DNA of 64,000 nucleotides from the NCBI GenBank assembly GCA_021781455.1, contig JAJXWV010000027.1, forward strand, positions 1-64,000, in the 5' to 3' direction. Position 1 is the first letter of the stretch; every line of letters starts with the position of its first letter. The DNA is from Acidobacteriota bacterium (GTDB lineage Bacteria > Acidobacteriota > Thermoanaerobaculia > Gp7-AA8). A model generated the notes under the pieces. It was not told the origin of the DNA and made no database searches. It was given only the letters and a program-made list of their open reading frames with translations. Below, in pieces: positions 7,719-64,000 of this stretch. The translations under genes and the position numbers were made by a program.

Positions 7719-8378
7719 ATGCGTTCACTCGTTACTGCCGCCGTTGTGATGCTGATCGCAGGGACGGCCTTTGCCGAGCGCGAGGTCGCGCATCGCTTCG
7801 ACTCGCAGGCGGCGGCGCCGTCGATCAGGCGGGTCGTCATCGACGTCCCGAGCGGAACGATCCGCGTCCGCAACGGCGCCAGCGGGACGATTCGCGTTAC
7901 CGGCACGGCCCGACGCGAGTACGACGACTCGCCGCGCTTTGACCAGCAGATCGTCGACGACTCCTCCATCGAGGCCTACGTCAACCGCGATGAAGCCATC
8001 GTGCGGCGGCGCTTCGGCCCGAACGCACAGGGATGGCGCGCTCAGCGCTTCACCAGCTTCGACACGACGGTGGAAGTCCCCCCCGGCACTGCGGTGGAAT
8101 TCGAGACCAACTACGGTGACGTCGACGTGCACGGCTCGTTCGGCGACATCGACGTCTCTCTCCGCGCCGGCAACGTGAACATCACCACCCCCCGCGCCGA
8201 TGTGCGGGAGTTGAGCGCTTCCTGCCGGTTAGGCAGCGCCACGACGAATTTCGGCGGAGAGATCGTCCAGAAGGAAGGCCTGCTTCCCGGCAGCTCGCAA
8301 TTCTTCAACGCCGATGGCCACACGAAAGTGCACGCTCACGTGTCGGCGGGGAATCTCATCGTGACGCTGACGCGGTGA
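7719..8378 (+). CDS. Exported DUF4097-like protein
   Basis: 219 residues. Residues 1-19 (MRSLVTAAVVMLIAGTAFA) are a classical signal peptide with an AxA cleavage site. The mature part is a beta-rich repeat domain (for example SGTIRVRNGASGTIRVTG and NYGDVDVHGSFGDIDVSLRAG) like DUF4097/DUF4098 putative adhesin-fold proteins. AGGAGG at 7707-7712 fixes the ATG at 7719. A longer reading of the frame runs back through the terminator and is not real. The function of the family is unknown; a periplasmic or surface location is inferred from the signal peptide. Confidence 0.85.
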   Translation: MRSLVTAAVVMLIAGTAFAEREVAHRFDSQAAAPSIRRVVIDVPSGTIRVRNGASGTIRVTGTARREYDDSPRFDQQIVDDSSIEAYVNRDEAIVRRRFGPNAQGWRAQRFTSFDTTVEVPPGTAVEFETNYGDVDVHGSFGDIDVSLRAGNVNITTPRADVRELSASCRLGSATTNFGGEIVQKEGLLPGSSQFFNADGHTKVHAHVSAGNLIVTLTR

Positions 8379-8385
8379 CCGTCGG

Positions 8386-8570
8386 TGTGGGGCAGGCTTT
8401 CCAGCCTGCCCTCCCTGCCGGGCTGGAAAGCCCGACCAGGCGAGCGGGAGCGGTGGAGCGCGGCGAAGGATCTCTTACTGGGACGATTCGTAGGCTGGAG
8501 ACTCTTCGTCGCGCTCCGCCGCTCCGCCCAACCACCCTTCCCCGCGGCTCCGCCGGCTCAGAGTGACGGA
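8386..8570. repeat. Composite long repeat, copy 1
   Basis: Two repeat families sit side by side. The first is a hairpin GGCAGGCTTTCCAGCCTGCC with a second inverted copy (8390-8440). The second is a longer inverted element (8440-8570) containing GGAGCGCGGCGAAGGATCTC and ending GCCGGCTCAGAGTGACGG. Related copies lie at 15480-15712 and 38577-38868. The right end overlaps the cca gene and supplies its last codons and stop. Confidence 0.85.
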
Positions 8571-9625
8571 GGTCGCTTGGACCGCACGTATGCTTCCGCC
8601 TCCTCGCGCGTCTGCACCTGGCCGAGGATCTGAGCCTCGAGCAAAGCCCGTTTGATTCGCCCAAGCTCGGGGCCCGCGGGAATTGCGGTGAGCGCGGCGA
8701 TCTCGGTGCCGCTGAGCAGCGGTCGCATCGAGAAGTCCGGCAGCGGCATGCGATCGTCGCGGCCCAGGGCGCGGAGGGCGGCGAGAAAATCGATCGAAGT
8801 CTGCTTTCCTGCGTCATGGAGCGCAACGCGCAGGTCGCCGTCCGCGCGCAGCAGTCTCTGGATTGCCATCGTCTCCCGCAGCAGCGGCGTGCTCCATCGC
8901 CAGCGCTCCGCATACGGCCGCGGATCTTCGACGATGAGCGCGTAGGCCGCCGCGAGCGGGACTCCGTCGGCGTGGAACTCGGGCCCGTGGATCTCATGAC
9001 CGAACAGCGGCAAATCGAGTCCGCTCTCGTGCAGCAGGTCGACCGCCGTCCGGAACGCTCCCGCCGAGAAGATGATCGACAGCTCGTAGCTGACGCGCTC
9101 GGCAGCGACGAAGGCGATGGACTCGGCGCGTTTGCGAATGGCCGCCTTCGTTGCGGGCTCGATGTCGAAGCGTAGCCGTACCGCCATGCGCACGGCCTTG
9201 AGCAGCCGCAGCGGGTCGTCATCGAAATTGGCAGGATCGATCATCCGCACCAGGCGCTGCTCGAGGTCGCGCCGCCCGCGGTGCGGATCGAGCAGCGCGC
9301 CGGATCGCAGCGACACCGCCATGGCGTTGATCGTGAAGTCGCGGCGGGCCAGATCGCGGTCCATGTCGCCGTCGAGGATCTCCGCGAAATCGAACACGTG
9401 CGGGCCGGCGACAACGCGCCAGGCACTGAGGTGGTCCTTGCCGAGGCGAATGACTTTGCGGCCGAGCAATCGCGCGCAGGCCAGAGGATCGAGGCAGGCC
9501 ACGTCGACGTCGCCCGGTGCCTCGCCGCGCAGGAGATCGCGAACGGCGCCGCCGACGACCCAGGCATCCGCGCCGAGCGCGCCCAGATCGGGGAACAGAC
9601 GGATCAGGTCATCGCGCAAAGGCAT
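8558..9625 (-). CDS. cca: CCA tRNA nucleotidyltransferase / poly(A) polymerase family
   Basis: 355 residues of class II nucleotidyltransferase. GGAVRD is at 25-30, the catalytic GDVDVAC (D39, D41) at 38-44, RRDFTINAMA at 94-103 and the DP..LLKAVRMA helix at 137-148. The family adds or repairs the tRNA 3' CCA; the motifs cannot tell a full CCA enzyme from an A-adding or CC-adding form or poly(A) polymerase. Being the only copy in view, CCA addition is the default. The start is the ATG at 9623-9625; a longer reading fuses it to the frame-shifted upstream gene. The final residues come from the flanking repeat. Confidence 0.88.
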   Translation of the reverse strand: MPLRDDLIRLFPDLGALGADAWVVGGAVRDLLRGEAPGDVDVACLDPLACARLLGRKVIRLGKDHLSAWRVVAGPHVFDFAEILDGDMDRDLARRDFTINAMAVSLRSGALLDPHRGRRDLEQRLVRMIDPANFDDDPLRLLKAVRMAVRLRFDIEPATKAAIRKRAESIAFVAAERVSYELSIIFSAGAFRTAVDLLHESGLDLPLFGHEIHGPEFHADGVPLAAAYALIVEDPRPYAERWRWSTPLLRETMAIQRLLRADGDLRVALHDAGKQTSIDFLAALRALGRDDRMPLPDFSMRPLLSGTEIAALTAIPAGPELGRIKRALLEAQILGQVQTREEAEAYVRSKRPPSL

Positions 9626-35475: not shown

Positions 35476-35600
35476 ATGGCAGACCACAGACCACAGACCA
35501 CAGACCACAGGGCGCAGGGCGCAGGGCGCAGGGCGCAGGGCGCAGGGCGCGGAGCGGATAACAGGGTAAAGCCCCCTGCGCTCTGCGCTCTGCCTATGCG
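35476..35600. repeat. Tandem heptamers CAGACCA and GCGCAGG
   Basis: Four CAGACCA units (35480-35510) run directly into about six GCGCAGG units (35509-35549). Reverse-complement CTGCGCTC units follow at 35576-35595. Two different heptamers at one locus. Confidence 0.9.
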
Positions 35601-35604
35601 ATCT

Positions 35605-39963: not shown

Positions 39964-40049
39964 TGAAGTGCTGAGTACTGAGTGCTGAGTACTGAGTAGA
40001 ACCAGCCCACCGCATGACTCAGTACTCAGCACTCAGTACTCAGCACTGA
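39964..40049. repeat. Heptamer inverted repeat (TGAGTAC/TGAGTGC type)
   Basis: Five units (39966-39998) face five reverse-complement units (40016-40048). Lies within the ribD-ribE transcription unit. Confidence 0.9.
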
Positions 40050-45477: not shown

Positions 45478-45577
45478 CAAATCGAAATGTTGAATGTTCA
45501 ATATTGAATGTTAAATGTTAAATGTTAACAGACACTCAAATTCAACATTGAACATTCAACATTCAACATTCTCATTC
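45478..45577. repeat. AT-rich heptamer inverted repeat (AATGTTG type)
   Basis: Six AATGTT(G/C/A) units (45486-45528) face TTCAACATTGAACATTCAAC-type units (45541-45573) between pyrB and pyrC. Confidence 0.9.
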
Positions 45578-47188: not shown

Positions 47189-47276
47189 CGAGTGCTGAGT
47201 GCTGAGTGCTGAGTACTGAGTGCTGAGTCTCCCCCTTCCGCTCACTCAGTACTCAGCACTCAGTACTCAGCACTTC
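47189..47276. repeat. Heptamer inverted repeat (TGAGTGC type)
   Basis: Five TGAGTGC/TGAGTAC units (47191-47228) face their complement (47245-47275) in the divergent gap between pyrR and the response regulator. Confidence 0.9.
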
Positions 47277-47740: not shown

Positions 47741-48196
47741 ATGGCCAAACTCTTCTTCGTCGGCCTGGATGGCACGGAGAAAAGCTATCGCCTCCAGACG
47801 CACCGGCCGTTCACGGTCGGACGCGATCCGGGGAACGACATCATCCTCCGCGATCCGAAGGTGTCCCGGCATCATGCCGAGATCGTCTTCGAGCGGGGAT
47901 TCTTCGTTCTTCATGACCTGTCGAGCGCGAACGGGACCTGGGTCAATGGAAAGCGCGTCCGGGTGGCTCCCCTGACCCACGGCGCGCGGGTGCGCATGGG
48001 CAACAGCGAAGGGCGGTTTTCCGAGGAGCTTCCCACCGAGAACGACGCGGCCGAGGAAGGGTTCGCGCAACCGTTTGAACAACCGATGCCCTCCACGGAA
48101 TCGGTCGACGCCATTGCCACCTCGGAGCATGAAGGCATCAACGCCGCAACTCTTCCCCACCCGAAAGTCAGACCTCAGGAACTAAAAAAAAACTAA
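47741..48196 (+). CDS. FHA-domain protein
   Basis: 151 residues. An N-terminal phosphothreonine-binding FHA domain (about 20-90) has G27-R28, SRHH at 42-45 and NG at 64-65. AAGGAGA precedes the ATG. A disordered acidic linker follows and the frame ends at a run of nine A residues (48184-48192). A -1 shift at that run joins it without stop to the membrane protein at 48250-49029, so the real product may be a fusion of about 430 residues. Partner proteins would be Ser/Thr-kinase substrates; no kinase is in view. Confidence 0.9.
   Translation: MAKLFFVGLDGTEKSYRLQTHRPFTVGRDPGNDIILRDPKVSRHHAEIVFERGFFVLHDLSSANGTWVNGKRVRVAPLTHGARVRMGNSEGRFSEELPTENDAAEEGFAQPFEQPMPSTESVDAIATSEHEGINAATLPHPKVRPQELKKN
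48184..48192 (+). other. A9 slippery run at the end of the FHA frame
   Basis: Frame 0 reads CTA AAA AAA AAC TAA. Slipping back one base gives AAA CTA AAC GTT GAC..., open into the next coding region. It could be a programmed slippage site or an undercounted homopolymer in the assembly. Confidence 0.55.
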
Positions 48197-49399: not shown

Positions 49400-51658
49400 T
49401 CAGGGAGCAGCGGCCGCAGGAGTGGGCGTTTGCGGCCCCGGCGCGATCGTCGTCATCGGCACGATGTCGATTCCGGTGTAGTAGCGCTTCAGGATCTGGT
49501 CGAACTTCCAGCCGCGGAAGGCCATCCCGAACGCTCCCACCTGGCACATGCCGATGCCGTGGCCGAATCCTTTTCCGTAGAACGTGTAGCGATCCATTCC
49601 ATCGGGGTCCTTCGTCTTCTCGAAGATGAAGAGATTGTCGGGAACGTTGAGCGACCAGCGGATCGGAAGGCCTCGCAGGATGAACGTGCGGCCACCCTCG
49701 GCAGTCACTTCCATCTCGGCAACGCGATGCGAGGCGTCGATGGTGATCGGCCGCAGGTCGAGGAGCTGCCGGATGGGGGCGCGGTTGTTCATCGATTTCA
49801 CGATGTCGTCGGCGCGGTAGCTGCGGGTCCAATCGGCGTAGCTGGAGGTTCGGTCGAACGAGGTCCCGTCGTAATTGGCGATGACGATGAGCGCGGTGGG
49901 GATCTTTTTTTCGCTGAGCTGGACGGTGGCGCGGTCGCCGATCATCACCGGCACCCTGGCGTACTCCTGATATCGATCGCCCAGGCGGCGGTAGACGGGA
50001 ATGCCGTCCGGCAACGTGAAGCGGGCGATCCGTCCTTCGGCCTTGATGGCAAGGCGCCGGCCGTCGACCGAAGCGATCTTTCCGCTGACTTCGTTGAGCA
50101 TGTCGTGCTTGCGGAGCCAGGCGTTGAGAATCGCGTACAGCTCGTCGCGCGGCATGGCCGCCCCGAGGTCGAGGCGATCAATGTCCTGGGCGGGCCAGAC
50201 GCCGAACTTGATCAGGAAGGCCGCGGCCTGGTGGAGAGGGTCGTCGTTGCTGCGGGTCTGCGGGAAGAAGTACTGACGATCCTCCGGCAGCGTGAGCGTG
50301 CGGCCGGCCGTGTCGAGCGCGAAGATGGCGGCGAGGTATCGCAGCACGTCGCCGCGGCGCGCCGTCGCCGGCCTGGGCACAGCAGCGGTGTTCGAATAGC
50401 CAATGATGCGTCGCGCCGCCGTGACCGCGGTTTCCACATCGGCCGGGCTCCACGACCGCTGATCGCGGAGACCTGCGATCTCGGCGAAGGCGCGAGCGTC
50501 CATCTGCATGTCGTCGAGGATGCCGCTGTCGGAACGCCCGGCGATGGAAGTCATGTCCATCTCGACGCAGCGCGCCCGGCGCAGGTAGGGCTCGTTGCGA
50601 CCGGGAAACATCGTGCCGACGTCGGACGTCTCGCCGCCGCAGGTCGAGGTGTAGAGCGCGTCGATCGGCTTGCCGTCGTAGGTCATGATCAGACCGGCGG
50701 TCTCGCGCACGGCCTGATCGGTCATCGGCTCCTCGCCGGAGAACCCCTTGTAGGCCTGACAGGCAGGCCCCGGGCAGATGTCGAATCCTTCGGTCGCGAA
50801 CTGTCCGAAGTTGCGCACGGCGTAGGTGCGCGCGGCGACCGCCTGCGCCTTCAACGCCTCGAGCTCGTCGTAGATCTTCGAGCCCATCTCCGCCGGGACG
50901 ACTCCCCGCAGATAGTCCTCGAGATTGAGCTCGTTGATCACGTTGAGGAGGCCGCGGGAGTTGATCCAGACGCGGGCCGCCGTGCGGTAGGGCTTCCCGG
51001 CGATGGTGATGGTGTCGCCGCTCACCGGGAGGATCAGGATCGAAGCGCTGCTGATCGTCGTGCGATCCCCTTCGTCATCGACGATCTCCACGCGCCGCTC
51101 GAAAGGCTGATCCGACGGCCGCCGCACAATCGGCATCTCCTTCCCGTAGCCGCGCTGGACGAGCTGGTCGCGCAACGGCTGCGCCGATCGAGCATCGGCG
51201 TAGTCGCCGACGAGGATCCGGTAGATCCCGCCATTCGACGCGGAGGGATCGAAGATGCTGTCGACGCTCTGCCCCGTCTCGCTGCGCAGGCGGTCGGCGA
51301 AGGCCATGGCGCTCGGCTTGTCTGAAATCGCAGCGGCCTGCACGGCATAACGGACAGCCGCTTCACGGAGCGGCGCGCCGATCGTGAACCCGCGACGCAG
51401 GATCGACGGCCCGCTATCGGCGATCAGGTAATAGCCGTCGCCGACGCGTGGAAACGAGACGGTGCCCTGATCGGTCAGCATCCCGACACGAATGCGCGGC
51501 TCGGCAATTGTCTTCGGCACCGACGCCACCGGGGTCATGGCGTTGGCCGAGCGTAGGGCAGCAGGCGTCGCCGGTGGAGTGGCATGAGGAGCGGGAGCCG
51601 CCGCGCAACCCGCAAGCAGCGTGATGGAGATGCCAAACAGAGGGAGGGTCAGCTTCAT
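49400..51658 (-). CDS. SpoIID/LytB-domain lipoprotein with SPOR-like region
   Basis: 752 residues from the ATG at 51656-51658 (AGGAGC 6 nt upstream). Lipobox LLAGC with C18. A SPOR-like segment lies at about 103-175 and the SpoIID core at 245-365 (LEDYLRGVVPAEMGS, LKAQAVAARTYAVRN, STCGGETSDV). The terminal GFGHGIGMCQVGAFGMA is at 697-713. About 330 residues are inserted between the two core halves. SpoIID-family proteins are lytic transglycosylases acting on peptide-free glycan, which SPOR domains also bind. In a non-sporulating lineage a division or cell-wall turnover role is inferred. Confidence 0.88.
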   Translation of the reverse strand: MKLTLPLFGISITLLAGCAAAPAPHATPPATPAALRSANAMTPVASVPKTIAEPRIRVGMLTDQGTVSFPRVGDGYYLIADSGPSILRRGFTIGAPLREAAVRYAVQAAAISDKPSAMAFADRLRSETGQSVDSIFDPSASNGGIYRILVGDYADARSAQPLRDQLVQRGYGKEMPIVRRPSDQPFERRVEIVDDEGDRTTISSASILILPVSGDTITIAGKPYRTAARVWINSRGLLNVINELNLEDYLRGVVPAEMGSKIYDELEALKAQAVAARTYAVRNFGQFATEGFDICPGPACQAYKGFSGEEPMTDQAVRETAGLIMTYDGKPIDALYTSTCGGETSDVGTMFPGRNEPYLRRARCVEMDMTSIAGRSDSGILDDMQMDARAFAEIAGLRDQRSWSPADVETAVTAARRIIGYSNTAAVPRPATARRGDVLRYLAAIFALDTAGRTLTLPEDRQYFFPQTRSNDDPLHQAAAFLIKFGVWPAQDIDRLDLGAAMPRDELYAILNAWLRKHDMLNEVSGKIASVDGRRLAIKAEGRIARFTLPDGIPVYRRLGDRYQEYARVPVMIGDRATVQLSEKKIPTALIVIANYDGTSFDRTSSYADWTRSYRADDIVKSMNNRAPIRQLLDLRPITIDASHRVAEMEVTAEGGRTFILRGLPIRWSLNVPDNLFIFEKTKDPDGMDRYTFYGKGFGHGIGMCQVGAFGMAFRGWKFDQILKRYYTGIDIVPMTTIAPGPQTPTPAAAAP

Positions 51659-56099: not shown

Positions 56100-57917
56100 A
56101 TGCCCGCGATCCATGTCCTCCCCTCCGAGCTCATCAACCAGATCGCAGCCGGAGAGGTCGTCGAGCGCCCCGCCTCTGTAGTCAAGGAGCTCGTCGAGAA
56201 CGCCATCGACGCAGGGGCCCAAACCATCGACATTCTGCTCGAGAACGGGGGGCGCAAGCTCATCGAGGTCCGCGACGACGGCTGTGGCATGCCGGAGCGC
56301 GACGCCATGCTGGCGCTGGAGCGCCACGCCACCTCGAAGATCGGCTCATTCGACGACCTGACGCGGGTGCGCACGCTCGGCTTTCGCGGCGAGGCTCTGC
56401 CCTCGATCGCCAGCGTGTCGCGCTTCTCGATGACGACCTTCGACGGCGGAAGCGGGCACGCCACCACCGTGGCCTTCGACCCGCTCACCGGCAAGCGCAG
56501 CGTGATCCCGGCGGCGCGCGACCGCGGCACGACCGTGACCGTGCGGGAGCTCTTCGAGAACGTGCCGGCGCGGCGGAAGTTCCTGCGCAGCGGGGACGCC
56601 GAGTTCCGCTCCGTCGTCAGCGTGGTCTCTTCGTACGCCCTGCCGATGCCGTCGCGCGCCTTCCGGCTGGAGCACAACGGACGCATCGTTCTCGATCTGC
56701 CGCCGGCAGCTTCCCTGCGGGAGCGCGTGGTGCAGATCATCGGCAGCGACTGCGAGCCCGCTCTGGTGGAGTTCGACTACGAGGTGGGCGTCGCCCGGGC
56801 CGGCGGCTTCGTCACCCGCGGCCTGCGCTACGGCAGCCGCCGCAACCAGTTCTTCTTCGTCAACGGACGTCTGGTGAAGGACCGCGTGCTCAGCCACGCC
56901 GCCACGCGTGCCGGCGATGCCTTCGATTTCGACGGCCATCCGGCGATCGTGCTCTTCGTGGAGGTCCCGCCGGAGATGGTCGACGTCAACGTGCACCCCG
57001 CCAAGACGGAAGTGCGCTTCCGCGATTCCTCGCAGATTCACGTGGCCGTCGAGCACGGGCTGCGGCGTGCGTTAGGCGGCGCGGAGGAGGGATCGGCCCT
57101 GCTGCAGGGCGCCGACTCGGTGGCCGCCGACGCGGGCATTCCCGTGGCCGGCGACGACTTCGAGGGCGGCGGCCCTGCACCACTCCTCTTTCCGCCGCAG
57201 CGCGTCGACCCTCTGCCGCCGCACCCTTCTTTCGCACCGCTGTTCCGGGGCGAGCCGGTGGTGCAGCCGCCGCTGCGGGCTTCCTCGGCCGTGCTGGCAC
57301 CGCTGGCCGAAGCGCCCGCAGAGCCGGAGCCGTCCCTCGGCGACCTCCAGGGACGCGTCATCGGGCAGTACCGGATGAGCTACATCCTCCTCGACACGCC
57401 CGGGGGGCTTCGCCTCGTCGACCAGCACGTGGCCCACGAGCGCGTCCTCTACGACCGCTACTGGGAACGCATCGTGCGCCGCGCCGCGACCACCCAGCAT
57501 CTCCTCACTCCCATGCTCTACGAAGGGGGCGCCGCCGAGAGCGCGGTGCTGGAGTCGCACCTGGAGGAGCTGCGAGCCGTCGGCTTCGACATCGAGCGCT
57601 TCTCCGGCAACACCTTCTCGATCACCGCAGTCCCTCCCGAGATCGTGCAGAAGGACGTCGACGGCTTCCTGCGCAAGCTCGTGGACGCCTCACTCGAGGA
57701 GAGCGCCTCGCACGTGGTCCGCGTCCGCGAGAAGGTCTGTGCCTCGCTGGCCTGCCAGGCTGCCATCAAGGTGCACCGCCCGTTAGGCGGCGACGAGATG
57801 GCCCGCCTCGTAGCCGAGCTTCTGGCTTCCTCGAACCCCTATGCCTGCCCGCACGGCCGCCCGATCATCGTCGACATCAAGCACCTCGACATCGAGAAGC
57901 ACTTTCATCGGAAGTGA
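56100..57917 (+). CDS. mutL: DNA mismatch repair protein MutL
   Basis: 605 residues. GHKL ATPase: EVVERPASVVKELVENAIDAGA (ATP-lid helix with catalytic E), DDGCGM, ATSKI and GFRGEALPSIASV. A Pro-rich linker (about 345-415) leads to the dimerisation domain, which contains an ACQAAIKVHRPL segment. I do not see the DQHAxxERxxYE endonuclease motif in full form; DQHVAHERVLYDRYW matches only partly. Acts with MutS after replication; mutS is not in the window. Confidence 0.97.
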   Translation: MPAIHVLPSELINQIAAGEVVERPASVVKELVENAIDAGAQTIDILLENGGRKLIEVRDDGCGMPERDAMLALERHATSKIGSFDDLTRVRTLGFRGEALPSIASVSRFSMTTFDGGSGHATTVAFDPLTGKRSVIPAARDRGTTVTVRELFENVPARRKFLRSGDAEFRSVVSVVSSYALPMPSRAFRLEHNGRIVLDLPPAASLRERVVQIIGSDCEPALVEFDYEVGVARAGGFVTRGLRYGSRRNQFFFVNGRLVKDRVLSHAATRAGDAFDFDGHPAIVLFVEVPPEMVDVNVHPAKTEVRFRDSSQIHVAVEHGLRRALGGAEEGSALLQGADSVAADAGIPVAGDDFEGGGPAPLLFPPQRVDPLPPHPSFAPLFRGEPVVQPPLRASSAVLAPLAEAPAEPEPSLGDLQGRVIGQYRMSYILLDTPGGLRLVDQHVAHERVLYDRYWERIVRRAATTQHLLTPMLYEGGAAESAVLESHLEELRAVGFDIERFSGNTFSITAVPPEIVQKDVDGFLRKLVDASLEESASHVVRVREKVCASLACQAAIKVHRPLGGDEMARLVAELLASSNPYACPHGRPIIVDIKHLDIEKHFHRK

Positions 57918-58015
57918 CGGGTTCCTCGGTTCCTCGGTTCCTCGGTTCCTCGGTTCCTCGGCGCTCAGCTTGTGACCGTAACCTCGCAACCTCGTGACCT
58001 CGTGACCTCGTGACC
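57917..58015. repeat. Tandem octamers GGTTCCTC and CCTCGTGA
   Basis: Five GGTTCCTC units (57921-57960) are followed by three CCTCGTGA units (57991-58014), direct rather than inverted. The last CCTCGTGA supplies the GTG start of the next gene. Confidence 0.9.
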
Positions 58016-58453
58016 AGTAAGAAACCTGCATTGTTCCGTTGGAATCCGTTCGCTCTGCGGAAGATCGCGGCGTCGAAGCTCGGGCGGAGAGGCGAGTCGC
58101 GCGCGGCCTGGTTCTACCGCCTGCGCGGATACCGCATCGTGGCGCGCAATCTCCGGCTCCGCGAAGGAGAGATCGACCTGGTGGTGCGCCGCGGCCGCAC
58201 CATCGCCATCGTCGAAGTGAAGGCGCGGCAGTCGGTCGGCACCGGAGAGGGCTGGGAGGCCGTCGATCAGCAGAAGCGTCTGCGCCTCATCCAGCTCGGC
58301 GACCGCTATGCCGCCCAGAGCCCGCCCGGAACGGTGCTGCGCTACGACATCCTCTCGCTGTTCTGGAACGGCCGCCGCTTCGTCGTCACGCACTTTCCGG
58401 ACGCCTTCCGGCCGGTGAGCGACCCGGTTCGGCCGTGGAAGTGGCGGGTGTGA
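58010..58453 (+). CDS. yraN: YraN/UPF0102 family protein
   Basis: 147 residues. GRRGESRAAWFYRLRGYRIVARNLRLREGEIDLVVRRGRTIAIVEVKAR carries the family nuclease-like core E...GEIDLV...EVKAR of the PD-(D/E)XK fold. Function uncertain; members are ubiquitous and often lie near rnhB or ribosomal genes. The start GTG is inside the last octamer of the upstream repeat. It is the last chromosomal gene before the tRNA fragment. Confidence 0.9.
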   Translation: MTSKKPALFRWNPFALRKIAASKLGRRGESRAAWFYRLRGYRIVARNLRLREGEIDLVVRRGRTIAIVEVKARQSVGTGEGWEAVDQQKRLRLIQLGDRYAAQSPPGTVLRYDILSLFWNGRRFVVTHFPDAFRPVSDPVRPWKWRV

Positions 58454-58455
58454 GC

Positions 58456-58484
58456 AAAAGAAAAAAGGCCGCCCGGAGGCGGCC
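58456..58484 (-). terminator. Rho-independent terminator of the tRNA-Gly locus
   Basis: GGCCGCC/GGCGGCC stem (58467-58484) with a CGGA loop; on the minus strand followed by TTTTTTCTTTT. It lies 16 nt beyond the CCA end of the tRNA fragment, where a tRNA terminator belongs. Confidence 0.88.
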
Positions 58485-58500
58485 TCGATCGGATTCATTT

Positions 58501-58551
58501 TGGAGCGGGCAACCGGACTCGAACCGGCGACATCGACCTTGGCAAGGTCGC
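58501..58551 (-). tRNA. tRNA-Gly(GCC), 3' half only; probable attachment site
   Basis: Read on the minus strand, positions 26-76 of a tRNA-Gly are intact: anticodon stem CGACC/GGTCG with loop TTGCCAA (anticodon GCC), T-arm GCCGG-TTCGAGT-CCGGT, acceptor strand TGCCCGC, U73 and encoded CCA. The complementary 5' acceptor strand GCGGGCA and a proper D-arm are absent upstream; only a CAGTTGGT-like octamer (58570-58577) resembles a D-loop. A 3' half followed by a native terminator is what remains at one end of an element integrated by a tRNA-targeting tyrosine recombinase. A decayed tRNA is the alternative. Confidence 0.8.
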
Positions 58552-58735
58552 AGAGTGTGTTGGGCTGTCACCAACTGGCTGATTTCATTGCATCGCATCC
58601 GCAGATCTTCCGTCTGATCATGATCGATACCGGGCCATTCATGCCTCGTTGAAGACCTTGTGAAGACTTCGAAGTGCGAGCCGCCTTTCGGCGGCTCGCT
58701 GCGTCTGCACCACACGTTGGACCACACGGCCGGGT

Positions 58736-58741
58736 TATTCT
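58736..58741 (+). promoter_or_regulatory. -10 element of the SIR2-HNH operon
   Basis: TATTCT, 7 nt before the GTG at 58749; no Shine-Dalgarno. The 295 bp from yraN to here otherwise hold the terminator, the tRNA fragment and a hairpin GAGCCGCC/GGCGGCTC (58678-58697). Confidence 0.4.
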
Positions 58742-58748
58742 GAGCATC

Positions 58749-59879
58749 GTGTGGACCACGTACATGCTTGGCGCGGGCTTCTCTCGCGCGGCAGGTCTGC
58801 CACTCGGCAACGAACTCTTCGCCGAGGTGATCGATGCCGCGAAGCAGACGGTGCTCTGGGAGAACCTCCTGAAGCCCGATCTGCTGCGGTACGCGCTCTT
58901 CGTCCGTCGGACTACGGGAGTGCGCTTATCCCTCGCCGAAGTGGCAGCCGACTTCGAGCGCTTCATGTCGTTCTTGGACATTGAGCACACGCTTCGGTTG
59001 ACCGGCAGCGCGTGGACAAACAAGGGAAACAAGTCGCAGATGATTGTCCGCAACTTCATCGCAGAAGTGCTGTATCGCCGACAGGCGCGGATGAACGGTG
59101 AAGCCAAGCAGTTCTACGATGACTTCGCCCGGAAGCTCGACTCGACCGACATGGTCATCACCTTCAATTACGACACCGTACTTGAGGATGCTCTCGATCG
59201 AGTCGGCATCCGGTATCGGCTCTTCCCCTCCCGGTTCAAGGAGGTGGACGAATGGGGCGGTGGCGCCTTCGCGGACCAAGACGACGAAGTAGCTATCCTG
59301 AAGATGCACGGCTCGATCGATTGGTTCGACAAGTCGGACTTCGACGAGCAGTGCCGCGACTGGAAGAAAAAGGGACTGCCCGGCGTACCACCCGATGAGA
59401 TCTTCTCGACCGACGAGTTCGAGCTACAACCGCTCATCGACGGGATTTACCCGGAGAGTCCTTTGACCACCATCTATCGGATTCGCAACCTGAACCACTA
59501 CCTGTCGTGGGCATCGATGGTCCGGGACGCGCCAGTGTTGATCTCGCCGTCGTTCAGCAAGATTCTCTACATCAACCCGGTGAGCGAATTCTGGTTCAGC
59601 TTCGGTTCGCTCGGACGCTGGACGAGAAAGCTAGTAATCATCGGGTTCTCGATGCCGTCACACGACGAGTACGTTCGGCAAGGCATCTACTCGGTCATCC
59701 GCAACTTTCAGCACATGAAGCTCGGAAAGTCCACGCCGAAATCGAGGTTGAAGTTGGTCGACTTTCGCCGCTCGGCCAAGGCCGTGGCCGAGTACCGCCA
59801 GACGTACAGCTTCGTTGACTGGCGGCATACCGACGTTTTCCTCGACGGCTTTAACCCGAGCACGCTTCGGCACATCTGA
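58749..59879 (+). CDS. SIR2-like protein, putative NAD-hydrolysing defence effector
   Basis: 376 residues from the GTG at 58749 (the frame is open 25 codons further). NAD-binding signatures of the SIR2 fold: GAGFS at 8-12, TFNYDT at 138-143, a candidate catalytic His187 in KMHGS and IIGFSMP at 297-303. The region between (about 30-130) is helical. This is the stand-alone SIR2_2 type whose relatives deplete NAD+ in several anti-phage systems; it lacks the deacetylase zinc ribbon. It lies 2 nt before an HNH-type gene, so the two are one operon. NADase activity is inference. Confidence 0.82.
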   Translation: MWTTYMLGAGFSRAAGLPLGNELFAEVIDAAKQTVLWENLLKPDLLRYALFVRRTTGVRLSLAEVAADFERFMSFLDIEHTLRLTGSAWTNKGNKSQMIVRNFIAEVLYRRQARMNGEAKQFYDDFARKLDSTDMVITFNYDTVLEDALDRVGIRYRLFPSRFKEVDEWGGGAFADQDDEVAILKMHGSIDWFDKSDFDEQCRDWKKKGLPGVPPDEIFSTDEFELQPLIDGIYPESPLTTIYRIRNLNHYLSWASMVRDAPVLISPSFSKILYINPVSEFWFSFGSLGRWTRKLVIIGFSMPSHDEYVRQGIYSVIRNFQHMKLGKSTPKSRLKLVDFRRSAKAVAEYRQTYSFVDWRHTDVFLDGFNPSTLRHI

Positions 59880-59881
59880 AG

Positions 59882-61180
59882 ATGAGAAGTCCTTTTGAGA
59901 AGACTCTCCGAGCATTTCGGCGTCAAGTACTGAAGGTCCGCCACGCGATGGACGAAGTGCCTGACGACTCCCGCCTCACTTTCACGATGTCGATCAACGA
60001 GGGGGTGGTGAAGTCGGAATTCGCCGCGAAAGAGGAGCCGTCGAACATTCTGCTTGCGGTTCTCATGCGACCGCTCGTCACTGCCGAGTCACCCATCGCC
60101 TGCGGTCGTGTGTGGCGGCTATTGAAAGATGCAGTCGATATGAATGCGGAGATCGCGGCGAATATCGACGATGCACTCGTTCGCGCCGAGGCGGGCCAGA
60201 TTCCAGTCGAGTTCAACGGCAGACGCATCACGCAGCAGGAGATCTACGAAGTTCTGGCGAGCGGTGAGTTCTTCACGGAGAAGGCCGAAGAGGCACGTAC
60301 CTTACGCGCGCTCCGCTTCGGCCCGATGGCCGATTTCATCTGGATGCACTTCTACTCGTACTGCGTCGACATGTACGGAATCGCGGAGGCGATCCTCACC
60401 GCGACACCGCCGTTCGCGTCGCGAGATGAGGCGGTAGTGCCAGATCCACGCTGCATCTACTGCCTGCAAGACGCGGGCGCATTCACATCGGAGGAGCATG
60501 TCATTCCGGAGGCGTTCGGCAACGACGACGCCGTCCTTCCGGTCGGCTACGTGTGCGATGTATGCAACAACAACGTCCTCGCCGAGCTTGACGAGTATCT
60601 GGCGAACTTCGAGGCGATCAGCCTCCAGAGAGTTATCAATGTGCCCTACACGAAGAAGGGCAAATTGCCGAGAGCCGAATTCGGCAACGCCATCGTCGAG
60701 AAGCGGATGCCGCGACTTCTGCGGATTATCGATCGCAATCAAGGAGATCCGTTCCAGATCTACGACACGCAGCCTGACGGTTTCTGCCGATTCAACCTGC
60801 ACCTGCGAAGTCGAAAGCCGTTCGAGTCGAAGATGCTCGGCCGTGCGCTGTGCAAAATCGGACTCGGGATGATTGCCTTCCACGTTGGCCGGGATCGGGC
60901 ATGCTCTTCCCGATATAGCGTCACGCGCTCGTTCATTCGAGGTGAGGGCGTTCTCGACAACAACCTTATCCTTCTCACGAAGACCGGGGAGCCTCACACG
61001 CAGGTTGCGTTCACGTGGTTCGATCAGGAGGGTGGCACGCCGTGCGTAGCTGACTTCTACGGCGTATTGATGTTCTTCAATCTCGAAGAGGAGCCGAAGC
61101 TCGTTCTCGATCCCAACGACCCACTGGCTCAGGACTTCACCAGCTTCAATCTCGGCGCCAGCGTCCCTACTTCGACTTAA
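59882..61180 (+). CDS. HNH-type nuclease-like protein
   Basis: 432 residues. A zinc-stabilised HNH-like centre: C191-x2-C194, then EEHVIPEAFG (E205-H206), then C225-x2-C228-NNN, the HNH_5 pattern. The N-terminal ~185 residues are helical and unfamiliar; the C-terminal ~190 are mixed alpha/beta with no motif I know. The start is 2 nt after the SIR2 stop. The 3' end overlaps the convergent gene by 14 nt. It could be the nuclease or sensor partner of the SIR2 protein. Confidence 0.78.
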   Translation: MRSPFEKTLRAFRRQVLKVRHAMDEVPDDSRLTFTMSINEGVVKSEFAAKEEPSNILLAVLMRPLVTAESPIACGRVWRLLKDAVDMNAEIAANIDDALVRAEAGQIPVEFNGRRITQQEIYEVLASGEFFTEKAEEARTLRALRFGPMADFIWMHFYSYCVDMYGIAEAILTATPPFASRDEAVVPDPRCIYCLQDAGAFTSEEHVIPEAFGNDDAVLPVGYVCDVCNNNVLAELDEYLANFEAISLQRVINVPYTKKGKLPRAEFGNAIVEKRMPRLLRIIDRNQGDPFQIYDTQPDGFCRFNLHLRSRKPFESKMLGRALCKIGLGMIAFHVGRDRACSSRYSVTRSFIRGEGVLDNNLILLTKTGEPHTQVAFTWFDQEGGTPCVADFYGVLMFFNLEEEPKLVLDPNDPLAQDFTSFNLGASVPTST

Positions 61181-61922
61181 TCACTTCGACGAAGAGCTTC
61201 GATTTCGACATGAGGTCTTTGATCTCGGTGCCAGCATCTTCGAGCGGTTGTCCGTTGTACGCGGCCCAATCGGTTACGAGCTTCCGGGCAAACGCCTCGA
61301 CTCCATGCTTCTCATTCGTCGTCGGATTTGGGAGTGTCACGTCGACGGACTTGTTGCCGTTCGCCGTCTCGACGTAGTAGCTCTCGCCGATATGGAGAAT
61401 GTGCGTCACCTCGCGGTGATACGGCTGGCCGTTCGCGTCCTTCTTCCTCACAGCGAGCGAGAGCCGTTCGACGATGAAGGGTGCGCTCGCCATCGTCACG
61501 CTGTCATTGAGCATGACGAGCAGGCCATCGGCGCTCGCAATGTTGAACAGCCTTTTTGTATCCGGGATCTGAAGAGCAGCACTGTCGAATCCGGCCTCGA
61601 CCGGCTTGGTAACGAGCTTCACGAGGTCGTTGTAGAGGTTCTGACCCTTGGGTAAGGTCTGGAACAGCTCTTCGACGACGTGCTGGCCAGCAGAGAGCCC
61701 GGCCGGGTCAAGGCCGTGCGCCCTCATGAACTCTACCGCCTTGTTCTCCGTCTCGGTTTCGAGCGCCTTGATCTCGCAGATGATCGTGCGGTTCTCGAAG
61801 AAAAAGTCGGCCTTCTTCAGCTTCAGGACCTTCTGTTCGTCGGACAGCGGTATCGAATCGATCTCTTCGGCACCGGGGTACTCCCGGCAGAAATCGATGA
61901 AGCGATCCTTCAGACCAGCCAT
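61167..61922 (-). CDS. PD-(D/E)XK nuclease-like protein
   Basis: 251 residues. The segment KLKKADFFFENRTIICEIKA places D39 and E50-x-K52 in the spacing of a PD-(D/E)XK active site, with a helical N-terminus before it. The rest (about 90-251) is mixed and unrecognised. It is convergent with the HNH gene, overlapping its last 14 nt. It may be an independent defence nuclease or belong to the same module. Membership in the restriction-endonuclease-like fold is inferred from one motif. Confidence 0.65.
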   Translation of the reverse strand: MAGLKDRFIDFCREYPGAEEIDSIPLSDEQKVLKLKKADFFFENRTIICEIKALETETENKAVEFMRAHGLDPAGLSAGQHVVEELFQTLPKGQNLYNDLVKLVTKPVEAGFDSAALQIPDTKRLFNIASADGLLVMLNDSVTMASAPFIVERLSLAVRKKDANGQPYHREVTHILHIGESYYVETANGNKSVDVTLPNPTTNEKHGVEAFARKLVTDWAAYNGQPLEDAGTEIKDLMSKSKLFVEVIKSK

Positions 61923-62917
61923 ACATAGAGGTTACTCCCGGTATCCGATGCCGACCACGGGAGCATTGAGAAATCCGATATTTTGCGATTTGACAAACCC
62001 AGCCTAACGACCTAGATTAGAAATATCTCCGTAGCTGAGCACCAAGACGACGCTAGTCGGTCGGCGAGCGGAGATTTGCGAGTTTTGAGCTTCCTACCGC
62101 GCATTTAGTCCTCTCCGCGCTTTTCTGCTCGTCCTTCTCGCGCTAGCCACCGATCCGGAGGTTTGTTCGATGTAGGACACAGGAGCATTTAGCGTGCCCC
62201 CAAGAAACAGGAAACCCCGGCTTGCACCCGGGGTTAAGCGTCCTCGCAAGAAAGCGAGGGGGAGGATTGAGTGACCCCCAGTTTACTTGATCGCTGGACG
62301 TGTGCCACGAAGCGCCGGTCAGGCCGAAACAAGCCCGCTCGACGCGTCGAATGGCAGCGCCAGCGAACACCACCACCCAAGCCGTGCAATCATCGACCGC
62401 TACGACTCAAACGATAACCTCATTCGTTCTTTCGAGGGCGGGGCTTCTCCCCCGCCCTCTTGCCTTGTTCCCCACCCTCATCCAAGGCATCATAGGGATG
62501 CTTCGAACCACTTCTCCGCTGATGCCATCGGAAAACAGAAAACCCTTCCGGTAGTTTGGCGGTGCGTAAAACTGTAGACCCGAGAAATCACCATTCCGGC
62601 GTTGGATGACCCTCAGCACACCCTCATGGTTAATGCAGGGCTCATTGTCCATCCACGGTCGAAATTCGCCCTGCTCCGGGCCTCGTAGGTGGCCGAATGT
62701 GTGGTTACCACCGCGTCGGGTAGCAATGTGCTGGAGGCCACGTGTAGCACCTCCAGCACCTTACGTCATTCTGACCTTCGCCCGACCTCTGGAGTAGCAA
62801 TCAGGAGAACGCTATCTACCCCCTACCCTACCGAATGCCTCCAGTTGTTATTTGCAGCCTCGCTGGCGTGCGCACAGGGGTTGAGCACGGATGTAGGGAT
62901 AGATTCCAGATCAGCGC
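61923..62917. other. About 1 kb with no convincing gene, several strong hairpins
   Basis: No reading frame has a good start, composition or family match; an 81-codon minus-strand frame at 62407-62652 is the best but unsupported. Structures seen: AACCCCGG/CCGGGGTT (62213-62235), CCTCGC/GCGAGG (62242-62259) with GGGGG/CCCCC (62258-62279) competing for it, GAGGGCGGGG/CCCCGCCCTC (62437-62461), and a perfect 10-bp stem GTGCTGGAGG/CCTCCAGCAC (62728-62759). Could hold non-coding RNA or decayed genes. Confidence 0.5.
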
Positions 62918-63064
62918 TCAAGGGGCTTCCTGTTGCGCTGGGGAGGCATCAGAGGGTGCCGGTGACAGTTCGCTGTCGTCGTCCTCAGCCTCATCTTCGA
63001 ACGGTGGCTCATAGTCGTTCCGCCACTGGTTGTAGTCGATCAATTCGATGTATCGGTCATCCAT
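62918..63064 (-). CDS. 48-residue highly acidic protein
   Basis: MDDRYIELIDYNQWRNDYEP opens a protein with about 17 Asp/Glu against two Arg and no Lys, including EDEAEDDDSE at 23-32, and a Pro/Ala-rich tail. GGAG lies 9 nt upstream of the ATG at 63062-63064; two in-frame ATGs 9 and 15 nt further upstream would add only MTK or MEMTK. It is downstream of the RepA-like gene on the same strand. Such charge recalls DNA-mimic or replication accessory proteins of mobile elements; no homologue is recognised. Confidence 0.55.
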   Translation of the reverse strand: MDDRYIELIDYNQWRNDYEPPFEDEAEDDDSELSPAPSDASPAQQEAP

Positions 63065-63080
63065 TTTCGTCATCTCCATT

Positions 63081-63107
63081 GAGCCCCGGCCGGGTCGGCC
63101 GGGGCTC
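63081..63107. other. GC-rich hairpin
   Basis: GAGCCCCGGCC/GGCCGGGGCTC, 11-bp or longer stem, 17 nt upstream of the acidic-protein start. A pyrimidine-rich tract follows on the plus strand, but no plus-strand gene needs it, so its role may be to separate RepA transcription from the small gene. Confidence 0.6.
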
Positions 63108-63159
63108 TTCTCTCGGATTCAGTTTTCTTCTCTTCTTTTCTCTTGCCACCCTCTTCGGT

Positions 63160-63241
63160 CGTTAGTCACCACTCATAGTGGTGGTGACTAACGCCCAAGT
63201 AGAGGCTCAATTGGTCACCTAGTCAGTTGACCATTGGTGAC
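63160..63241. repeat. Inverted-repeat array with GTCACC core
   Basis: CGTTAGTCACCAC (63160-63172) and GTGGTGACTAACG (63181-63193) form a perfect 13-bp inverted pair with an 8-nt loop. A second pair, TTGGTCACC (63211-63219) and TTGGTGAC (63234-63241), follows. Four GTCACC/GGTGAC cores lie in 77 bp at the 3' end of the RepA-like gene. Confidence 0.75.
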
Positions 63242-64000
63242 GAAGCGACCAACGGCTGTTCTACCAGCCGAATGTACTTGCCACGACTCTCGCGGACGAT
63301 CATTCCTGCTTTCACCGCAAGGTTGATGAGCTGCTTCGCCACGGTGTCTTTGACCCCCAACTCCACCTGAACCTTGAGCATAAGATCCTTCGACTGAATA
63401 GCGACGTCGGCCGGGGTGAGTGAAGCAACAACGGCCAGACGAGGCTCCGCTGCCCGGGCCGCGCAGCTACCGTGGAGCATCTCGACCCTTGCGGCAGCGT
63501 AGTCCACGCTCAGTGTCCGAGGTGGCAAGGGTGGTCCATCCTTTATCTTCTCGAAGGTCAGGAGGATCGTGGTGTTGTCGCCCTTGGGAGTGAAAGTGAT
63601 GACGGTCGACGAGTCGTCCGACAGCGCTGAGGCACCCCTCGATCGAGCGGCGCCGCTCATACCTTCGGTCTTTTTGACGAAGTGATGAACCATCACGAAA
63701 GCAGGCTGCCAATCGAGGGACCGAGCCATATCCCTCAGCGGCTGGATCACCTTCATCTTCACGTCGCTGTTTAGGTTCTCGTCGGCGGTGTGGAAGTAGC
63801 CGATGGTGTCGAGAAACACGACCTCAGCCCGGGTGGCCTCGACGAGCTGGCGCAGCTCGTTCCCGATCTTCGGCATGCTGCAATCGCGGGCCAGAAAGAG
63901 AAGGTTGGGCACCGCATCGTCGATGGCAAGCCCTGCACGAATCTGGCGGCGACGGTTTGCAAACACGGCTCGATTGGCTTCACCCTCCAAGTACAGAACG
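63223..64000 (-). CDS. RepA-like AAA ATPase, 5' end outside the window
   Basis: 259 codons visible, open to the window edge. It begins VLYLEGEANRAVFANRRRQI and continues with VVFLDTIGYFH as Walker B and FVMVHHFVKKTEGMSGAARSRGASAL, typical of the RepA/AAA_25 DNA-helicase-like ATPases of plasmids and phages. The C-terminal ~90 residues look like a winged-helix domain (KDLMLKVQVELGVKDTVAKQLINLAVKAGMIVRES). Walker A lies beyond the window. Marks the region as a replicating or once-replicating element. Confidence 0.82.
   Translation of the reverse strand, partial: VLYLEGEANRAVFANRRRQIRAGLAIDDAVPNLLFLARDCSMPKIGNELRQLVEATRAEVVFLDTIGYFHTADENLNSDVKMKVIQPLRDMARSLDWQPAFVMVHHFVKKTEGMSGAARSRGASALSDDSSTVITFTPKGDNTTILLTFEKIKDGPPLPPRTLSVDYAAARVEMLHGSCAARAAEPRLAVVASLTPADVAIQSKDLMLKVQVELGVKDTVAKQLINLAVKAGMIVRESRGKYIRLVEQPLVASSPMVN

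Follow-up and report, generated by a model that had tools for sequence, protein, structure and literature searches.

Islands that sit in tRNA genes have been catalogued with the tool Islander, whose collection comprises 3,919 candidate islands, 3,760 of them with 3' fragments and 2,083 centred on the anticodon (PMC4383910). The tRNA gene fragments that remain from integration have been mis-called as tRNA genes (PMC9897764), and in an island of Enterococcus faecalis, fragments of the chromosome left together with the island during aberrant excision (PMC3084688). We describe here a locus at which a tyrosine-recombinase island has very probably been inserted into the only tRNA-Gly(GCC) gene found in a Thermoanaerobaculia bacterium, a truncated copy of this tRNA marking the left edge of the island. 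This reading was built from both ends of the island, an empty site in a congener, the junction of two contigs at an insertion sequence (IS), base composition, a family of integrases associated with tRNA 3' ends and paired arm repeats. Like the Islander islands (PMC4383910), the element has an intact tRNA at one end and a 3' fragment in the same orientation at the other, carries a tyrosine integrase inside and is anticodon-centred; it differs in its flanking repeat, which continues for 218 bp beyond the tRNA and enters a host protein gene.

The window analyzed (64,000 nucleotides, positions 1 to 64000 of contig C70) belongs to a draft genome of 4.88 Mb in 90 contigs (G000). On its minus strand, at 58501-58551, we found the 51-nt block GCGACCTTGCCAAGGTCGATGTCGCCGGTTCGAGTCCGGTTGCCCGCTCCA, which spans the anticodon arm, variable loop, T-arm, acceptor 3' strand and CCA. 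It is a perfect tRNA-Gly(GCC) 3' half followed by an intrinsic terminator, exactly as the initial annotation had described (hairpin GGCCGCC-CGGA-GGCGGCC at 58467-58484, with an A-rich run at 58456-58466 on the plus strand). The block occurs once in the window, where not even its 33-nt core is expected by chance, and exactly once elsewhere in the genome, within the intact tRNA-Gly(GCC) gene located at 9310-9385 of contig C38, on the minus strand. Directly to the left of this gene are two tandem tyrosine-recombinase genes, int1 (C38 6665-7783) and int2 (7780-9060), which overlap by 4 bp and are ca. 27% identical to each other. Both match the Pfam family Phage_integrase (2e-20 for int1, 1.7e-27 for int2), and the R, HxxRH, LGH and C-terminal Y motifs could be recognized by eye in both. 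The host genes ntrX and ntrY are found to the right of the tRNA.

In another genome of the same genus (G001), mutL, yraN, tRNA-Gly and ntrX are uninterrupted and contiguous on a single contig (G001:C72), which represents the empty site. Since the order is contiguous there, the window up to 58552 and C38 from 9362 are the two halves of one ancestral site. The initial annotation had interpreted the 3' half as the boundary of an integrated element and had proposed looking for an intact minus-strand tRNA-Gly(GCC) that shares the block and has an integrase beside it, and for a relative without the island. Both were found, and the partner tRNA, its adjoining integrases and the empty site in the congener support that interpretation. 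In a different genus (G002:C324, locus L026), a truncated tyrosine-recombinase-like ORF (308-817) adjoins the same tRNA-Gly(GCC), which suggests that this gene is a repeated integration site.

Table 1. Coordinates of the features at the island ends and in the adjoining DNA. Positions are those of the window unless a contig is named.
Feature	Position	Strand	Evidence or remarks
mutL, host left flank	56100..57917	+	Pfam MutL_C 9e-32; adjoins yraN and tRNA-Gly in G001
yraN (UPF0102), complete host copy	58010..58453	+	Pfam UPF0102 1.5e-20; last 56 codons repeated at C38 9092-9259
Left copy of the 270-bp direct repeat (left attachment region)	58283..58552	.	Right copy at C38 9092-9361
Intrinsic terminator, original tRNA-Gly gene	58456..58484	-	GGCCGCC-CGGA-GGCGGCC and T-run on the minus strand
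tRNA-Gly(GCC) 3' fragment, probably displaced by integration	58501..58551	-	Sequence; repeat identity also covers 58552 (tRNA position 25)
Integrated island, left part	58553..64000	.	Empty site, G+C shift, GACCAC duplication; runs to C70:65453, IS copy, C38:127-9091
Left candidate arm-type site pair TGAAGAC-CTTG-TGAAGAC	58650..58667	+	Spaced ca. 95 bp from the repeat; C38 9073-9091 holds the partner pair
SIR2-like defence-type protein	58674..59879	+	Pfam SIR2_2 5.6e-8; PADLOC SIR2 models down to 5e-11
HNH endonuclease-domain protein, adjoins the SIR2-like gene	59882..61180	+	Pfam HNH_5 4.9e-9
251-aa protein	61167..61922	-	Weak phage-protein match, phrog_20483 4.3e-7
AAA_25/primase-like replication protein, 573 aa	C70 63223..64944 (window to 64000)	-	Pfam AAA_25 9e-23; phrog_906 DNA polymerase/primase 4.6e-13
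IS ends	C70:65454-65553; C38:1-126	.	Also ends of C15, C19, C72, C37, C76, C12

The end of C70 (65553) and the start of C38 (1) both enter one multi-copy sequence found at eight contig ends, which are the four left and four right ends of one IS. A search of the assembly for the body of this IS returned only the known contig ends, and in a direct comparison C70 and C38 did not overlap in sequence at their ends. The left end of the IS holds internal repeats (GTCAACTAGAACTGCGGG), and its target duplications are of 6 bp. By comparing the flanks, we found perfect duplications in three contig pairs, C70-C38 (GACCAC), C19-C76 (CCAGCC) and C72-C37 (TTCTGG), and no clean one in the fourth, C15-C12. Because the flanks share GACCAC, a single IS copy would lie between C70:65453 and C38:127, which would place both ends of the island on one chromosome; this evidence is indirect but specific. 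With this join the island is resolved, at about 15.9 kb plus the IS. The IS, in its four copies, breaks the assembly, and its target duplications let contigs be joined.

The G+C content of the island is 58.4% (58.3% and 58.6% in its two pieces) versus 64.3% in the host. The tandem arrays of 7-8 bp that are frequent in the host stop at 58015 and resume at C38 9475, with none in the island, and thus the sudden loss of intergenic repeats noticed in the initial annotation is real. These host intergenic arrays (e.g., 1186-1267, 35480-35604, 39967-40047, 45485-45571, 47190-47274 and 57920-58015) often occur as facing pairs of complementary arrays.

The left part of the island codes for proteins of defence and replication type (Table 1). 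The start codon of the SIR2-like gene is uncertain and may lie near 58749-58764. The AAA_25/primase-like gene can also be described as belonging to a primase/helicase class. No Pfam or NCBIfam match was found for the 251-aa protein; its stretch ICEIKALE resembles, by eye, a PD-(D/E)XK nuclease motif, with a possible EIK motif. On C38, to the left of int1 and int2, there is a 211-aa ORF without matches and then a type I restriction-modification operon (hsdM, hsdS and hsdR). Neither relaxase nor type IV secretion genes were detected among the island genes scanned (a set without some small ORFs and the IS region), and no capsid, terminase or tail genes among the island ORFs compared with PHROGs (a set without the restriction-modification subunits and small ORFs).

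Relatives of int2 (31 to 49% identical, E values up to 1e-30) are present in 15 of 100 other genomes subjected to a whole-genome search, and none were found by peptide pattern in public genome and viral contigs. In all 13 loci with an adjoining tRNA in the fetched stretch, the 3' end of the tRNA, which may be Gly(CCC), Arg, Pro, Val or Thr, faces the integrase. The six related islands examined at both ends are 7 to 51 kb long and have repeats of 45 to 88 bp that start near the anticodon loop. In one of these genomes (G014:C120, loci L082-L084), two copies or fragments of tRNA-Thr(CGT), at 47913-47999 and 49568-49654 of the joined 60 kb, lie by an int2-type integrase and look like a tandem or replaced pair of islands. 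No int1-type partner was found beside the int2 relatives, and in the stretches fetched around the int1 relatives of G017 and G013 no neighbouring gene is of int2 type. The int1-int2 pair may therefore be a new combination.

Both ends of the island carry the paired motif TGAAGAC-N4/5-TGAAGAC. Pairs of the form GAAGAC-N3-8-GAAGAC occur only twice in the window and positions 1-20000 of C38 together, once per island end. At 10 of the 13 loci of int2 relatives, the best-scoring short direct repeat on the 3' side of the tRNA has a 12-bp period and is placed 47 to 92 bp from the tRNA end. Most of the related islands show the same motif pair again near the opposite end, ca. 93 to 110 bp from the tRNA fragment there. 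The left-end match of the island described here was reached by one of 200 shuffles. The right-hand pair taken alone was not significant in shuffle tests locus by locus in most loci, and an automatic scan for arm pairs did not rank the right pair of this island best; the case thus rests on the 12-bp period and position common across loci, together with the matching pair at the other end. By position and pairing, these repeats are candidate arm-type sites to which the integrase may bind.

The two ends of the island share a direct repeat of 270 bp with 99.63% identity and a single mismatch (blastn and alignment). Only 52 nt of it are in the tRNA; the 51-nt block given in the initial annotation is therefore exact but is not the whole shared block. 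The repeat is this long because the right end of the island also holds the last 56 codons of yraN and the terminator; it comprises this part of yraN and its stop codon as well as the terminator and the 3' half of the tRNA. At the right end, the yraN segment and the terminator separate the tRNA from the integrase arm sites. The repeat directly abuts the right arm pair on its inner side, with the result that this pair is 218 bp away from the tRNA, compared with the 47 to 92 bp given above. The segment shares 99.6% identity with the sequence of this host, while the congener G001 differs from it at many positions, indicating that the yraN end was picked up recently and locally. We consider it likely, as the simplest explanation, that the end of yraN and the terminator were captured from the host flank by illegitimate recombination within this species.

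The island very probably integrated at tRNA-Gly(GCC), where the crossover would lie in the anticodon arm and int2 would catalyze it and bind the arm repeats. The original 3' half and its terminator (58456-58551) stayed by mutL and yraN, and the 3' half brought by the island rebuilt an intact tRNA-Gly(GCC) at the other end, by int1 and int2. The extra 218 bp would have arisen when, in a rare event, the right arm site was joined illegitimately at its inner edge to yraN at about codon 92, either in an aberrant excision circle that later reintegrated or by one crossover between island-bearing and empty sister chromosomes. Either route would give the observed structure, and the native spacer would be lost in both.

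Alternatively, the 270-bp repeat might be a native long attP core, the island having always carried the yraN 3' end, the terminator and the tRNA 3' half. Some phages, such as HP1, do share long identical att regions with their host site, and the repeat of the tRNA-Thr island in G014 (88 bp, 91%) includes a copy of the terminator; hence, carrying a terminator may be useful. However, a native core would hardly be expected to match this host almost perfectly when the congener differs at many positions of the same stretch, the related islands have repeats of only 45 to 88 bp, and the segment shifts the arm-to-tRNA spacing out of the range found in them. A native long attP is thus unlikely, and less likely than illegitimate capture. 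It is more doubtful still that the captured segment is functional, providing a homology arm and a ready-made terminator with which the island could dock and leave by RecA recombination as well as by its integrase, with the right arm-to-core spacing tripled.

The genome is a draft and its junctions are known from the assembly alone, so the int2-yraN-tRNA junction on C38 could be an artefact of assembly or binning and the repeat might not exist within one chromosome. Yet there is no shared sequence at the join between int2 and yraN that an assembler could have used, the G+C content of both pieces is equal, and the IS target duplication links C70 to C38, all of which makes a chimera very improbable.

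Just beyond the tRNA fragment, at 58570-58577 on the minus strand, the octamer CAGTTGGT matches the D-loop of the intact tRNA-Gly(GCC), and it sits in a short inverted repeat (CCAGTTGG...CCAAC). It is present as the initial annotation had stated, but it is separated from the 51-nt block by 17 nt instead of the 4 nt of the intact tRNA, and it is probably there by chance rather than as the remnant of a decayed gene. Decay of a full tRNA in place, without any island, has a negligible probability despite the octamer, and we reject it in view of the empty site and of the partner gene: the tRNA gene is split, its intact copy is at the other end with ntrX, the congener has one tRNA between yraN and ntrX, and the DNA beyond 58552 differs in composition and gene content.

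ARAGORN calls a tRNA at 58505-58581 on the minus strand, as in the mis-called fragments reported previously (PMC9897764), from which nothing essential differs here. Because Rfam found no family at the gathering score anywhere in the window and the folding of the called strand is no better than that of shuffles (z = -0.26), the call very probably does not correspond to a working tRNA, and we rejected it as a second functional gene. Recognizing the fragment keeps it from being annotated as a second tRNA-Gly.

The event is of a common kind, an ordinary tRNA island whose far end is slightly unusual in structure. Its description gives exact ends to a mobile defence island from a bacterial class that has received little study, the 270-bp repeat offers a clear case of an island that probably picked up the flanking DNA of its host, and the paired arm sites of the int2 family offer a simple signature for finding more such islands. 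The islands of this family in G060, G017, G016, G027 and G014, which belong to the same class, occupy other tRNA genes (Gly(CCC), Arg, Pro, Val and Thr); their spacers are short, and no int1-type gene was found beside their int2. They resemble the present one in that the tRNA 3' end faces the integrase and that, in most, paired arm-type repeats are present at either end. The closest parallel to the captured yraN end is the island of E. faecalis (PMC3084688), in which the carry-over of chromosomal DNA is the very step proposed here, detected there as circles in culture and deduced here from a fixed structure.
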